Part shown: piece by piece, positions 31,542 to 37,374 of the stretch
Layout: each line of letters starts with the position of its first letter
Numbering within the stretch: the stretch's first letter is position 1
DNA from: Primorskyibacter sedentarius
GTDB taxonomy: Bacteria; Pseudomonadota; Alphaproteobacteria; Rhodobacterales; Rhodobacteraceae
Reading direction: 5' to 3'
Assembly (NCBI RefSeq): GCF_004342065.1
Contig: NZ_SLZU01000002.1
Location: 248,001-312,000, forward strand
DNA length: 64,000 nucleotides
Translations under genes and position numbers: made by a program
Notes under the pieces: model-generated
What the model was told of the DNA's origin: nothing
What the model saw: only the letters and a program-made list of their open reading frames with translations
Database searches by the model: none

Positions 31542-32518
31542 TGCGATTTAAGCCTTTCAAGGGTCGAGATTTCAGGGGATGGCAGCAGCGGCAGCAGCTT
31601 TTCGGCAAGATCTGCCAGTGCGGGATGCCGCAAGTTGTCTTGCAGATGGGTCCATACCCGAGGGATCAGATCGATGTAATGCGATTTGCCCGCCGAGATG
31701 CATAACCGGGTGAAGACCCCCAGAATGCGCAGGTTTCGTTGTGCGCCAAGCGTGGCGGCAGCAGCAGAAAACTGGTCCGGATCATGTCCGGTCAGGGTCA
31801 GGAAATGCGCCGTCGTGTCCTCCGCAATCGTCTGCGGCACGTCGCGACGGGCGTCTTGCAGCAGCGACACAAGGTCATAGGGCGAATGGCCCAGCATGGC
31901 ATCCTGAAAGTCCAGAAGACCGGCGCGGGCGCTGCCTTCGCGGTCCGGCAACCAAAGCAAGTTTTCGGCATGAAAGTCGCGCAACATGGTCACTGACGGC
32001 GCACCGGCATGGGCTTCGAGTGCGGCCAGCAAGGCGTCCATCGCCTCTGTCTTCGCCGCCTGCGGCACATCGTGGCCTGCGCGTGCGGCGTACCAGTCAA
32101 AGGCAAGATCCGTGGCCTGTGCCAGCATCACCGGTGTCGCCCGCGGCAGATCCGCAGGGGGTGGGAGTCGATGGAGCCTGGCCAGAACCTCTGCCGCCGT
32201 ACGATAAAGTACGGGCTCCAGCGAGGGCTGCTCGATCGCCAGTCGCGCGAATAATGCGTCACCCAGATCCTCCAGCAGCAGCAAACCGTTCTGCGTGTCG
32301 GCGGCCAGAATGCGCGGTGCGCTCAGCCCATGCGCCACGAGGTATTCCGCGAGCGATTGGAAAAGGCCCGTGTCGCCGGTCGGATCGATCATCAGGATGG
32401 CAGAGGCCGTCTGCTTCGTCAGGCGTTGATAGGCCCGCGCCGAAGCGTCCCCTGCAAGGGCCGTTCTCTCGGCGTCGGCCCAGCCCGCGCGCGCAAGGAA
32501 TGTGTCTTGCGCCGTCAT
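31520..32518 (-). CDS. amgK: Phosphotransferase, N-acetylmuramate/N-acetylglucosamine kinase AmgK-like
   Basis: 332-residue aminoglycoside-phosphotransferase-fold kinase. The catalytic loop is MLRDFHAENLLWL and the metal-binding loop LLDFQDAMLGHSPYDLVSLLQD. In AmgK/MurU pathways it makes MurNAc-1-phosphate for the next enzyme. The ATG overlaps the tsaE stop (ATGA) and the end overlaps murU, so the three are translationally coupled. Substrate is inferred from the pair. Confidence 0.82.
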   Translation of the reverse strand: MTAQDTFLARAGWADAERTALAGDASARAYQRLTKQTASAILMIDPTGDTGLFQSLAEYLVAHGLSAPRILAADTQNGLLLLEDLGDALFARLAIEQPSLEPVLYRTAAEVLARLHRLPPPADLPRATPVMLAQATDLAFDWYAARAGHDVPQAAKTEAMDALLAALEAHAGAPSVTMLRDFHAENLLWLPDREGSARAGLLDFQDAMLGHSPYDLVSLLQDARRDVPQTIAEDTTAHFLTLTGHDPDQFSAAAATLGAQRNLRILGVFTRLCISAGKSHYIDLIPRVWTHLQDNLRHPALADLAEKLLPLLPSPEISTLERLKSQCPTRKP

Positions 32519-32988
32519 GTGGCCACCCCTTCAAGACGCGTTTCCCATTTCGGGTCAGTCCAGGATAATTCCAGGGCGCGCGCACCTTCCGTGCCGGTCG
32601 CGGCAAGGGTGATCGTCAACGCCCCGACCGGCGCCAGTGACCCAAGCCTGTCTGGCCATTCAACAAGGCAGATCGCGGTGTCAAACGCGTCTTCCAACCC
32701 CAGTTCGATGCATTGCGAAGGATCCGAAAGCCGGTAGAGGTCGCAATGCCAAATCTCGCCGGGCGCGGCATCATAGACCTGCACCAGCGTGTAAGTGGGC
32801 GAGGGCACATCTTCTGGCACAAGCAGAAGCGACTGGATCAGGTGGCGCGCGAAAAAGGTTTTGCCCGCGCCGATGCCCCCCTCCAGCAGCACAGTGTCAC
32901 CGGGCCGCAGCCCTGCGCCAAGCGCCTCGGCAATATTGCCGGTCGCCTGTTCATCAGGGCAGGAAAGGGTCTTTGATCTGCGAGACAT
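32515..32988 (-). CDS. tsaE: TsaE, ATPase for tRNA threonylcarbamoyladenosine synthesis
   Basis: P-loop ATPase that cycles the TsaB-TsaD complex making t6A at position 37 of ANN-decoding tRNAs. 157 residues. Walker A GGIGAGKT at 37-44, then SPTYTLVQVY and HCDLYRLSDP, and the conserved VEWPDRLG. No strong Shine-Dalgarno was seen at ATG 32988. It lies 40 bp after the PAS gene. Its partner gene tsaD is also in this window. Confidence 0.93.
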   Translation of the reverse strand: MSRRSKTLSCPDEQATGNIAEALGAGLRPGDTVLLEGGIGAGKTFFARHLIQSLLLVPEDVPSPTYTLVQVYDAAPGEIWHCDLYRLSDPSQCIELGLEDAFDTAICLVEWPDRLGSLAPVGALTITLAATGTEGARALELSWTDPKWETRLEGVAT

Positions 32989-34543: not shown

Positions 34544-34594
34544 AGTGCCGTTTCCGTCGCTCCACTTGGTCGTGTGAACAATTCCTTACCCGCG

Positions 34595-34610
34595 TTAATA
34601 ACTCCTTAAC
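34595..34610. promoter_or_regulatory. CtrA-binding motif TTAA-N7-TTAAC
   Basis: TTAA (34595-34598), TAACTCC, TTAAC (34606-34610) matches the full CtrA consensus and lies 52-67 bp upstream of the PAS-protein start, in the 79-bp gap after regB. Confidence 0.65.
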
Positions 34611-34622
34611 CGAGATTTCGTT

Positions 34623-36020
34623 CTACGCCTCGATCGGGGTGTTCTCTCCGATAGGTTGGGTCTGTTTGCCCAGGTCGGTTTCGATCTTGCTGCGCGGCCA
34701 GACGACCTCGACAATCGCGCCGCAGCGTTCAGTCTGGCTGCGCTGGGGGCCATGCGCGTCCGACCCGTTCGCAAAGCTCAGCTGCGCGCCCGTCCGTTCC
34801 AGCAGCGTCTTGGCGATGAAGAGGCCCAGCCCCATGCCTTCGTATTCAGGCCGCGCCTTGCGATCACGGTCAGACCGTCTGTTGCGCACGAAAGGGTCGC
34901 CGATGCGTCCGATCAGATGCGGCGGGTAGCCCCGCCCGTCATCGATGATGCGGACCGTGACGTTGCTGTCTGTCCACATCGCCTCGATCCAGACGGTGCT
35001 GCGGGCAAAATCGACGGCGTTCTGCACCAGATTGCGCAGGCCGTGAATGATTTCCGGCTGACGCAGGATATTGGGCTGTTCTTCTTCTCCGCCTGGGCCG
35101 GGCCCTTCGTCGAACAGGATGTTCTTGCCGCGCCCCTCATGCGGCTCGGCCGCTTCTGCGATGATCTGGGCCAGAGGCGCCTGACGCATGTGCAGGTCTT
35201 CTTTGCCCGCCCGCCCCATAGACCGCAGGATATCGCGGCAGCGATCGGCCTGTTCGCGGATAAGGCGCGCATCTTCCTGACGCTCGGGCTGGTCGCTCAG
35301 ATCCTCGATCAATTCGGAAGAGGTCAGCTTGATCGTGGCAAGAGGCGTTCCAAGCTCGTGCGCGGCTGCCGCCACGACCCCGCCCAGATCATTCAGTTTC
35401 TGGGCGCGCGACAATGCCAGCTGGGTAGCGGCCAGCGCGTCATCCATGGAATGCATCTCTTTCGCGATCCACCGCGAATAGACCGAAAGGAAAAGCAGCG
35501 CGATGGTGATCGCCACCCAGTTTCCGTAAAGAAACGTGTCCGGGATTCGCAGGATGAACCCCTGATCGGTGCGCAGGGGAAGGTGGTATTCGATCAGCAG
35601 GGTCACAAGTACAAAGGCGGTGATGCCCAGAAAAGCCGTCGAGCGCAGCGTCAAGACAGACGCCGAGATCGTCACCGGCCCCAGCACCAGCAACGAGAAC
35701 GGATTGTGCAACCCACCGGTCAGATAGAGCAGGAACGACAGCTGCAACACGTCGAACAACACCATCAGGAAATTTTCGGATTCGCTGAGGCGTTTGTTCT
35801 CGGGAAAAATGAACAGGGCGATCAGGTTGCCGATAACCGACACGCCGACCGTCATCAGGCACAGGCCGAGTTCAAGCGACAGGTTGAACATCCGCTGCGC
35901 GACGAACAGCGCAACAAGCTGTCCGATAATGGCCATCCAGCGGATCAGGATCATCGTGCGCAGACGGATCCAGTTGCCGCGGTTGCGACCGCCGTGGAAT
36001 ATGGTGTCGGCGTGGCTCAT
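34623..36020 (-). CDS. regB: Redox-sensing histidine kinase RegB/PrrB
   Basis: Membrane sensor kinase of the RegB/RegA global redox system. 465 residues. About six membrane helices in residues 20-185 contain the quinone-site motif GGLHNPF at 102-108. The H-box is AHELGTPLATIKL with phosphorylated His221, and the redox-active cysteine of the family is C261 (DRCRDILRSMGRAGKED). ATP-binding motifs NLVQNAVDFA, DDGRGYP and GLGLFIA are present. It is divergent from senC-regA, the classic arrangement. Confidence 0.94.
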   Translation of the reverse strand: MSHADTIFHGGRNRGNWIRLRTMILIRWMAIIGQLVALFVAQRMFNLSLELGLCLMTVGVSVIGNLIALFIFPENKRLSESENFLMVLFDVLQLSFLLYLTGGLHNPFSLLVLGPVTISASVLTLRSTAFLGITAFVLVTLLIEYHLPLRTDQGFILRIPDTFLYGNWVAITIALLFLSVYSRWIAKEMHSMDDALAATQLALSRAQKLNDLGGVVAAAAHELGTPLATIKLTSSELIEDLSDQPERQEDARLIREQADRCRDILRSMGRAGKEDLHMRQAPLAQIIAEAAEPHEGRGKNILFDEGPGPGGEEEQPNILRQPEIIHGLRNLVQNAVDFARSTVWIEAMWTDSNVTVRIIDDGRGYPPHLIGRIGDPFVRNRRSDRDRKARPEYEGMGLGLFIAKTLLERTGAQLSFANGSDAHGPQRSQTERCGAIVEVVWPRSKIETDLGKQTQPIGENTPIEA

Positions 36021-36123: not shown

Positions 36124-36741
36124 ATGATGAAAACAGCCTTGTTCGCCGCAACCATAGCAGGGGCCGCAGCTCTGGGTGTTGTCTATTTCAACTTGCAGAC
36201 CGGCTCTGACGACAGGTTTGCCCAATGCCGGGCGACTGCTGTTGCAGGTGGCGCGGACGAAATCGGCGGGCCGTTCACGCTGATGAATTCGGCGGGCGAG
36301 ACGGTGACCGATGCTGACGTCATCACCGAACCGTCGCTGATCTACTTTGGATACACGTTCTGCCCCGATGTCTGCCCGCTGGATGTGGCGCGCAATGCCG
36401 ATGCCGTTGATGTTCTGGCAGAGCATGGCAAATCCGTGACACCTATCTTCATCTCGATCGATCCCAAGAGGGACACGCCCGAAGCGGTGGGCGATTTTGC
36501 CTCCAACATGCATGAGCGCATGATCGGGCTGACGGGCACGCCGGAACAGGTCAAGGCTGCGAGCCAAACCTATCGCACCTATTACAAGGCGCATGACGAC
36601 GGCTCTGACTACTATCTCGTGGACCATTCGACCTTTAGCTACCTCGTGCTGCCAGAGCACGGTTTCGTTGAATTTTTCCGCCGGGAACTGGCCCCCGAAG
36701 AGATGGCAGACAGGATTGCGTGCTTCATCGACAACGCCTGA
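36124..36741 (+). CDS. senC: SCO1/SenC/PrrC copper chaperone
   Basis: Membrane-anchored periplasmic thioredoxin-fold protein that helps assemble the CuA centre of cytochrome oxidase. 205 residues: N-terminal anchor (about 4-22), copper-binding CPDVCP (C80, C84) and the third ligand His168 in VDHSTFSYLV, so all SCO ligands are present. It is the first gene after regB on the other strand, followed by regA. In Rhodobacter the same gene is called senC or prrC. Confidence 0.94.
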   Translation: MMKTALFAATIAGAAALGVVYFNLQTGSDDRFAQCRATAVAGGADEIGGPFTLMNSAGETVTDADVITEPSLIYFGYTFCPDVCPLDVARNADAVDVLAEHGKSVTPIFISIDPKRDTPEAVGDFASNMHERMIGLTGTPEQVKAASQTYRTYYKAHDDGSDYYLVDHSTFSYLVLPEHGFVEFFRRELAPEEMADRIACFIDNA

Positions 36742-36819: not shown

Positions 36820-37374
36820 GTGGCAGAAACGAAGCTACAGGAACTGGGAGACGACAAGAGCCTCCTGCTTCTGGATGATGACGAGGCTTTTCTCAGACGA
36901 CTGGCCAAGGCGATGGAAAAGCGCGGCTTCGAGGTCGAGATCGCAGGCTCTGTCGCGGCTGGCAAAGCAATCGCCACCGCCCGTCCGCCCGCTTATGCCG
37001 TCTGCGACCTGCGGCTGGAGGACGGAAACGGCCTGGACGTGGTCGAAGTCCTGCGTGAGAAACGCCCCGACTGCCGCATCGTCGTGCTGACGGGCTATGG
37101 CGCAATTGCCACGGCAGTTGCCGCTGTAAAGATCGGGGCGACGGATTACCTGTCAAAACCTGCGGATGCGACGGACATTACCAATGCGCTTCTGGCCACG
37201 GGCGACGACATGCCGCCGCCGCCGGAAAACCCGATGAGCGCCGACCGGGTGCGTTGGGAACATATTCAGCGCGTCTACGAGCTTTGTGACCGGAATGTAT
37301 CGGAAACCGCGCGTCGGCTGAACATGCACCGGCGGACATTGCAGCGAATTCTGGCAAAGCGGTCTCCGCGCTGA
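36820..37374 (+). CDS. regA: Response regulator RegA/PrrA/ActR
   Basis: Two-component response regulator, 184 residues. Receiver domain with acidic pocket LLLDDDE, phosphoacceptor D63 (VCDLRLEDGNG), and Thr/Lys switch residues in VLTGYGAI and LSKPAD. A Pro-rich linker (DDMPPPPENP) and a Fis-type helix-turn-helix (SETARRLNMHRRTLQRIL) follow, exactly the RegA layout. GTG start at 36820 with GGAGG upstream. Partner of RegB in redox control of respiration and carbon/nitrogen genes. Confidence 0.96.
   Translation: MAETKLQELGDDKSLLLLDDDEAFLRRLAKAMEKRGFEVEIAGSVAAGKAIATARPPAYAVCDLRLEDGNGLDVVEVLREKRPDCRIVVLTGYGAIATAVAAVKIGATDYLSKPADATDITNALLATGDDMPPPPENPMSADRVRWEHIQRVYELCDRNVSETARRLNMHRRTLQRILAKRSPR

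Follow-up and report, generated by a model that had tools for sequence, protein, structure and literature searches.

Control of divL by CtrA, a regulator of the cell cycle and of gene transfer, has already been published, a point missing from the earlier note on this DNA, and the site described here is a further member of that known circuit. Brilli et al. (2010) predicted, in the Rhodobacterales with a kinase-less DivL, that CtrA controls ctrA, cckA and divL; these bacteria, 'cluster B', share with the present case the kinase-less DivL and predicted CtrA sites before ctrA, cckA and divL, the three promoters which have full or near boxes in P. sedentarius (PMC2877005). That work was a weight-matrix prediction on the genomes then available, whereas the present analysis finds the exact footprint in 126 genomes out of 146 and adds a promoter architecture and a pattern of co-loss. 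Experimental data come from other genera. A CtrA site in the divL (Dshi_3433) promoter of D. shibae, the feature which that genus shares with our locus, was reported by Wang et al. (2014), with lower divL expression in the ctrA, cckA and chpT mutants; the divL assignment was termed weak, and the section consulted quotes no binding assay for divL (PMC4046655). In the same species the rise of divL was reported to come ca. 2 h after autoinducer and to lag behind that of ctrA and chpT (PMC6473078), a delay which fits a delayed loop.

Similar observations were made in two further relatives: divL is down in ctrA knockouts of R. capsulatus (Fogg 2019; PMC6363796), and a 2025 paper describes divL1 as repressed in the ctrA and cckA mutants of P. 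inhibens (PMC12363192). The DivL of R. capsulatus (rcc00042) is described as a short PAS DivL that modulates the phosphorylation of CtrA and the output of the gene transfer agent (GTA) (PMC6363796, PMC6473078). In P. sedentarius, by comparison, a GTA gene was found. The study behind the characterization of rcc00042 is reportedly that of Westbye et al. (2018).

A comparable loop, from CtrA to Osp, is found in Cereibacter sphaeroides, where a CtrA-activated gene likewise encodes a product that acts on CckA and where the box lies near -35, 54 bp before the osp start codon; Osp, which is receiver-like, inhibits CckA in a negative loop, whereas DivL is a PAS protein for which the expected sign is positive (PMC9430884). 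That study also placed short DivL and DivK loss on a tree; in the sections consulted, CtrA sites are marked for osp and none was seen for divL (PMC9430884). What is new here is the family-wide footprint, the promoter architecture, the appearance of the box on the branch that lost the kinase domain, and the co-loss with ctrA.

The divL locus and its product

The locus was found in Primorskyibacter sedentarius, in a stretch of 64,000 nucleotides of contig NZ_SLZU01000002.1 (hereafter the window), between a regB-type and a tsaE gene. The coordinates of its features are listed in Table 1; the gene order regB-divL-tsaE is conserved (53 loci).

Table 1. Features of the divL locus, in coordinates of the window
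Feature	Position	Strand	Remarks
tsaE, conserved downstream neighbour	32515..32988	-	Pfam PF02367, E 4.5e-34; 49/53 loci
divL, short form, 504 aa	33029..34543	-	PAS array behind a single N-terminal membrane helix; kinase domain absent
regB/divL intergenic gap, 79 bp, with box	34544..34622	-	
-10-like element GAATTGTTC	34576..34584	-	position conserved in relatives (A27, T31, T32 of the family pattern)
CtrA box (putative), palindrome GTTAA-N7-TTAAC	34594..34610	-	predicted functional direction into divL, TTAAGGAGTTATTAAC
regB-type redox sensor kinase, conserved upstream neighbour	34623..36020	-	51/53 loci; stop at 34623
senC/prrC-type SCO1 protein, reg cluster	36124..36741	+	
regA-type response regulator, reg cluster	36820..37374	+	

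In the divL product hydrophobicity peaks at residues 7-25 (Kyte-Doolittle mean over 19 residues, 3.14). A single PAS_7 domain exceeds the cut-off (residues 257-369, Pfam), and a Pfam search at E<=0.001 yielded no match to HisKA or HATPase. An earlier note on this DNA had described a kinase-less PAS protein adjoining tsaE, and both parts of this description were borne out by the Pfam results. The P. sedentarius genome was compared with the PAS regions of long DivLs from a member of the same family (G005) and from another family of the class (G044). Each region had one match, which in both cases was the PAS protein of the divL locus (E 1.2e-50 and 2.6e-29, respectively). Both long proteins had 4q20, 'Sensor protein DivL', as their best PDB match. 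Elsewhere in the class, outside this family, most of the matching proteins occupy open frames of 650-960 residues.

In a profile comparison (hhalign), residues 107-494 of the short protein aligned to residues 218-615 of a long DivL, with a probability of 100% over 384 columns. On this template the DivL kinase structure is matched from residue 616 onwards, just past the point (615) at which the alignment of the short protein stops; an alignment which ends at the kinase border indicates that the short protein corresponds to the sensory half of DivL. This profile comparison took the place of a fold comparison with Caulobacter DivL, since the AlphaFold2 model of the short DivL (two sequences; mean pLDDT 35.8, pTM 0.25) was too poor for a fold search; a direct sequence search of the short protein against the PDB gave no match at E<=0.1. 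Judged from the reciprocal single match and the profile alignment, the window PAS protein is the sole DivL orthologue in the genome. The homology to DivL proposed in the earlier note is thereby upheld, and a second clear DivL elsewhere, which that note had named as an observation that would speak against it, was not found.

Conservation of the box upstream of divL

The gap between regB and divL contains TTAATAACTCCTTAAC on the plus strand (34595-34610) and TTAAGGAGTTATTAAC on the minus strand (34609-34594), which together form one palindrome, GTTAA-N7-TTAAC, that satisfies TTAA-N7-TTAAC on both strands and lies 51-67 bp upstream of the divL ATG (34543). The box had been called perfect. The exact TTAA-N7-TTAAC is indeed present in the gap; its first half-site, however, reads TTAAG instead of TTAAC, the form found in 69% of the 117 relatives aligned (C after the first TTAA in 81/117), a difference which counts against its reading as a CtrA-activated promoter.

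Within the window a chance origin of the box is unlikely: TTAA-N7-TTAAC was matched twice, as opposed to 0.02 matches expected, and in shuffled versions of the window one match to TTAA-N7-TTAA was reached in only 3 of 100 shuffles. A count over the genome, which had been proposed as a check, yielded no enrichment: the 5.07-Mb genome has 19 matches (11+8) to TTAA-N7-TTAAC, at 14 distinct places, and likewise 19 (9+10) to the backwards pattern. Over-representation across the genome was consequently dropped as support for the box, and in the absence of an excess over the control a single box taken alone is weak evidence, so that the case depends on conservation.

To this end the upstream DNA of divL orthologues was compared in 146 genomes from this family, almost every one from a different genus. 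In G010, G111, G118, G141 and G186 the divL frame is split in two or contains stop codons, which may reflect recent loss or sequencing errors. The 146-genome set was derived from the 147 DivL-positive genomes by removing the first four of these, along with G164, where divL meets a contig end, and by adding G001, G009, G022 and G023; G029, a fragment, was excluded. A contig scan for named relatives gave one locus, from Primorskyibacter flagellatus.

TTAA-N7-TTAA was found upstream of divL in 126 of the 146 genomes, as compared to no more than 6 for each of the other spacings tested as controls (TTAA-Nk-TTAA, all other k from 0 to 20). In the 53 loci for which ca. 1.5 kb on each side were searched, the remaining 212 kb contained no further TTAA-N7-TTAA away from the divL promoter. 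The exact site is missing from 20 genomes, six of which have a long DivL with HisKA; among the other 14, in which DivL is kinase-less, eight display a site with one mismatch in nine and six have no good candidate. The conservation of spacing 7 settles that the box is real: a CtrA-site footprint before divL is conserved across a large family.

Promoter architecture and alternative readings

To characterize the promoter, 117 sites were aligned. The second TTAA is followed by a C in 99 of them and by a further C in 70%, while the flanks upstream of the box are unconserved. A -10-like element appears ca. 11-17 bases beyond the box, 26-32 from the box start; counted from box base 1, the most frequent bases are A27 (63%), A28 (56%), T31 (56%) and T32 (55%). 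The distance from box to start codon in the relatives is mostly 50-110 bp. The presence of a -10-like element at a fixed distance downstream places the box over the -35 region of a promoter reading into divL, and a box near -35 is the arrangement described for CtrA-activated promoters (PMC9430884). In the window, transcription would be predicted to start near 34571. The conserved orientation of the box, as far as the aligned bases tell, is that of the minus strand, into divL. The site had previously been read on the plus strand; the match there exists, as the box is palindromic, and it is the relatives that support the minus strand.

We read this box as a CtrA-activated promoter of divL, with a probability of roughly 0.85, by which a positive, delayed loop would run from CtrA through DivL and CckA to CtrA~P. 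The feedback loop suggested in the earlier note is thus largely supported as a proposal. The same site could in principle be one to which CtrA binds in order to repress divL or only to modulate it, in a negative loop limiting DivL when CtrA is high; its proximity to divL (51-67 bp upstream of the ATG) would allow for this, as would the different actions of CtrA and CtrA~P in R. capsulatus (PMC6363796). We consider it improbable, in view of the -10-like element downstream, which leaves the box over -35 in an activating position, and of the fall in divL expression in the ctrA mutants of three relatives (PMC4046655, PMC6363796, PMC12363192).

Less probable still is a role of the box at the 3' end of regB or in a joint redox control by FnrL or RegA, in place of a promoter dedicated to divL. 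The regB gene adjoins the box in 51 of 53 loci, the palindrome in this genome may be read both ways, and in R. capsulatus ChIP and in silico data suggest that FnrL binds next to divL (PMC7232146); across the family, however, divL is the gene indicated by the flanking C and by the -10-like element, and a 5' G, which the reverse reading would need, occurs in only 42 of the 117 aligned sites. Finally, a chance AT-rich match bound by no regulator, with divL merely co-transcribed with the co-directional regB gene 79 bp away, would agree with a genome count no higher than that of the backwards-pattern control, yet it is refuted by a footprint which combines one preferred spacing with divergent flanks and is confined, within the 212 kb of the same loci, to the divL promoter, so that we give it next to no weight, even though co-transcription with regB could still contribute.

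The proposed circuit

To place the divL promoter in its pathway, the other components were sought in the P. sedentarius genome. Its CtrA is 75% identical to Caulobacter CtrA, and ChpT and a GTA gene (PF13547) are present. An exact TTAA-N7-TTAAC box lies just upstream of a gene for a 790-aa hybrid kinase (G000:C12:52670, L211), which from its sequence, CckA motifs and domain order we take to be CckA. The ctrA gene is preceded, at 66 bp, by an imperfect box with 8 of 9 bases matching, and none was found near chpT. On this assignment of CckA, boxes of one kind precede both cckA and divL in P. sedentarius.

In the circuit as we envisage it, CtrA would bind the predicted box and activate divL; the membrane-anchored PAS array of the short DivL would then raise the kinase activity of CckA, a step whose sign and strength are taken by analogy from Caulobacter and from the phenotypes of R. 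capsulatus, and ChpT would pass the signal on to yield more phosphorylated CtrA. The second CtrA box, upstream of cckA, would join the same loop, and a promoter of its own would allow divL to be driven separately from the redox gene regB. Such a loop could time the switch from CtrA-dependent to CtrA~P-dependent functions such as motility and GTA maturation.

For the many Rhodobacteraceae that have CtrA and a DivL lacking the pseudo-kinase, this would close the question of how the two are wired. A likely control point over motility, quorum-sensing outputs and gene transfer agents is the dose of DivL that CtrA would set, and the footprint supplies defined bases to mutate along with a family-wide expectation.

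Evolution of the divL promoter

The exact box is absent upstream of divL in all six family members whose DivL keeps HisKA, and is present in only two of 27 long-DivL loci of other families, as opposed to 126 of the 140 genomes that remain of the family sample. The class sample consisted of 27 long-DivL upstream regions, from 92 genomes with a match, and 21 of the 27 were included in the tree. Among the long-DivL genomes of other families, G270 (L183, GTTAACCTTGCATTAAC) and G311 (L185, GTTAACGCGCCCTTAAC) have a similar box upstream of divL; these are perhaps independent gains.

In a tree of 81 DivLs (G081 having been left out), there is a single change of kinase state, and the box was gained on that branch; its exact form was later lost several times, with nine changes in all. 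An independent-pairs test of the box against the kinase loss provided one pair only, which means that their association is a single event, beyond statistical testing. Three early-branching genomes (G002, G016 and G147) encode a DivL of 650-750 residues with no Pfam HisKA and have the box, an indication that it arrived with or before the full truncation. A PDB search for remnants of the kinase half in the G147 protein gave nothing meaningful, and we therefore make no claim of proven kinase remnants there.

The joint occurrence of the two genes was tallied in 160 genomes of the family: CtrA and DivL were both present in 147, CtrA only in three and neither in ten, and no genome had DivL only. This nested co-loss, in which no DivL-only genome occurs, indicates that DivL is tied to CtrA. 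The three CtrA-only genomes, G061, G093 and G136, retain ctrA (87-90% identical) with no DivL match; the assemblies of G093 and G136 are fragmented, whereas that of G061 is not.

A scenario to which we would assign even odds is that transcriptional feedback replaced the post-translational control of DivL in one step within the Rhodobacteraceae. The box would have been gained on the branch that lost the recognisable pseudo-kinase half, the part that binds DivK, and would have been kept family-wide since, DivL having become so dedicated to the loop that divL is missing wherever ctrA has been lost (10/10). As such it would be a concrete case of a regulatory site gained as a signalling domain was lost.

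Other boxes in the genome

Several of the other boxes in the P. sedentarius genome adjoin genes with no Pfam match or no obvious link to the circuit. One exact box is flanked by a CHASE-GGDEF gene and the gene of a chromate transporter (G000:C12:146728, L015), and another lies upstream of a LuxR-type autoinducer regulator (G000:C2:463695, L003). A palindromic box also precedes the gene of a 131-aa single receiver protein (G000:C9:49025, L009), which is followed by a membrane protein with a sensor-like start. Unlike in Osp, the acidic pair and the lysine of this receiver are intact, and it is possibly a CtrA-controlled receiver.
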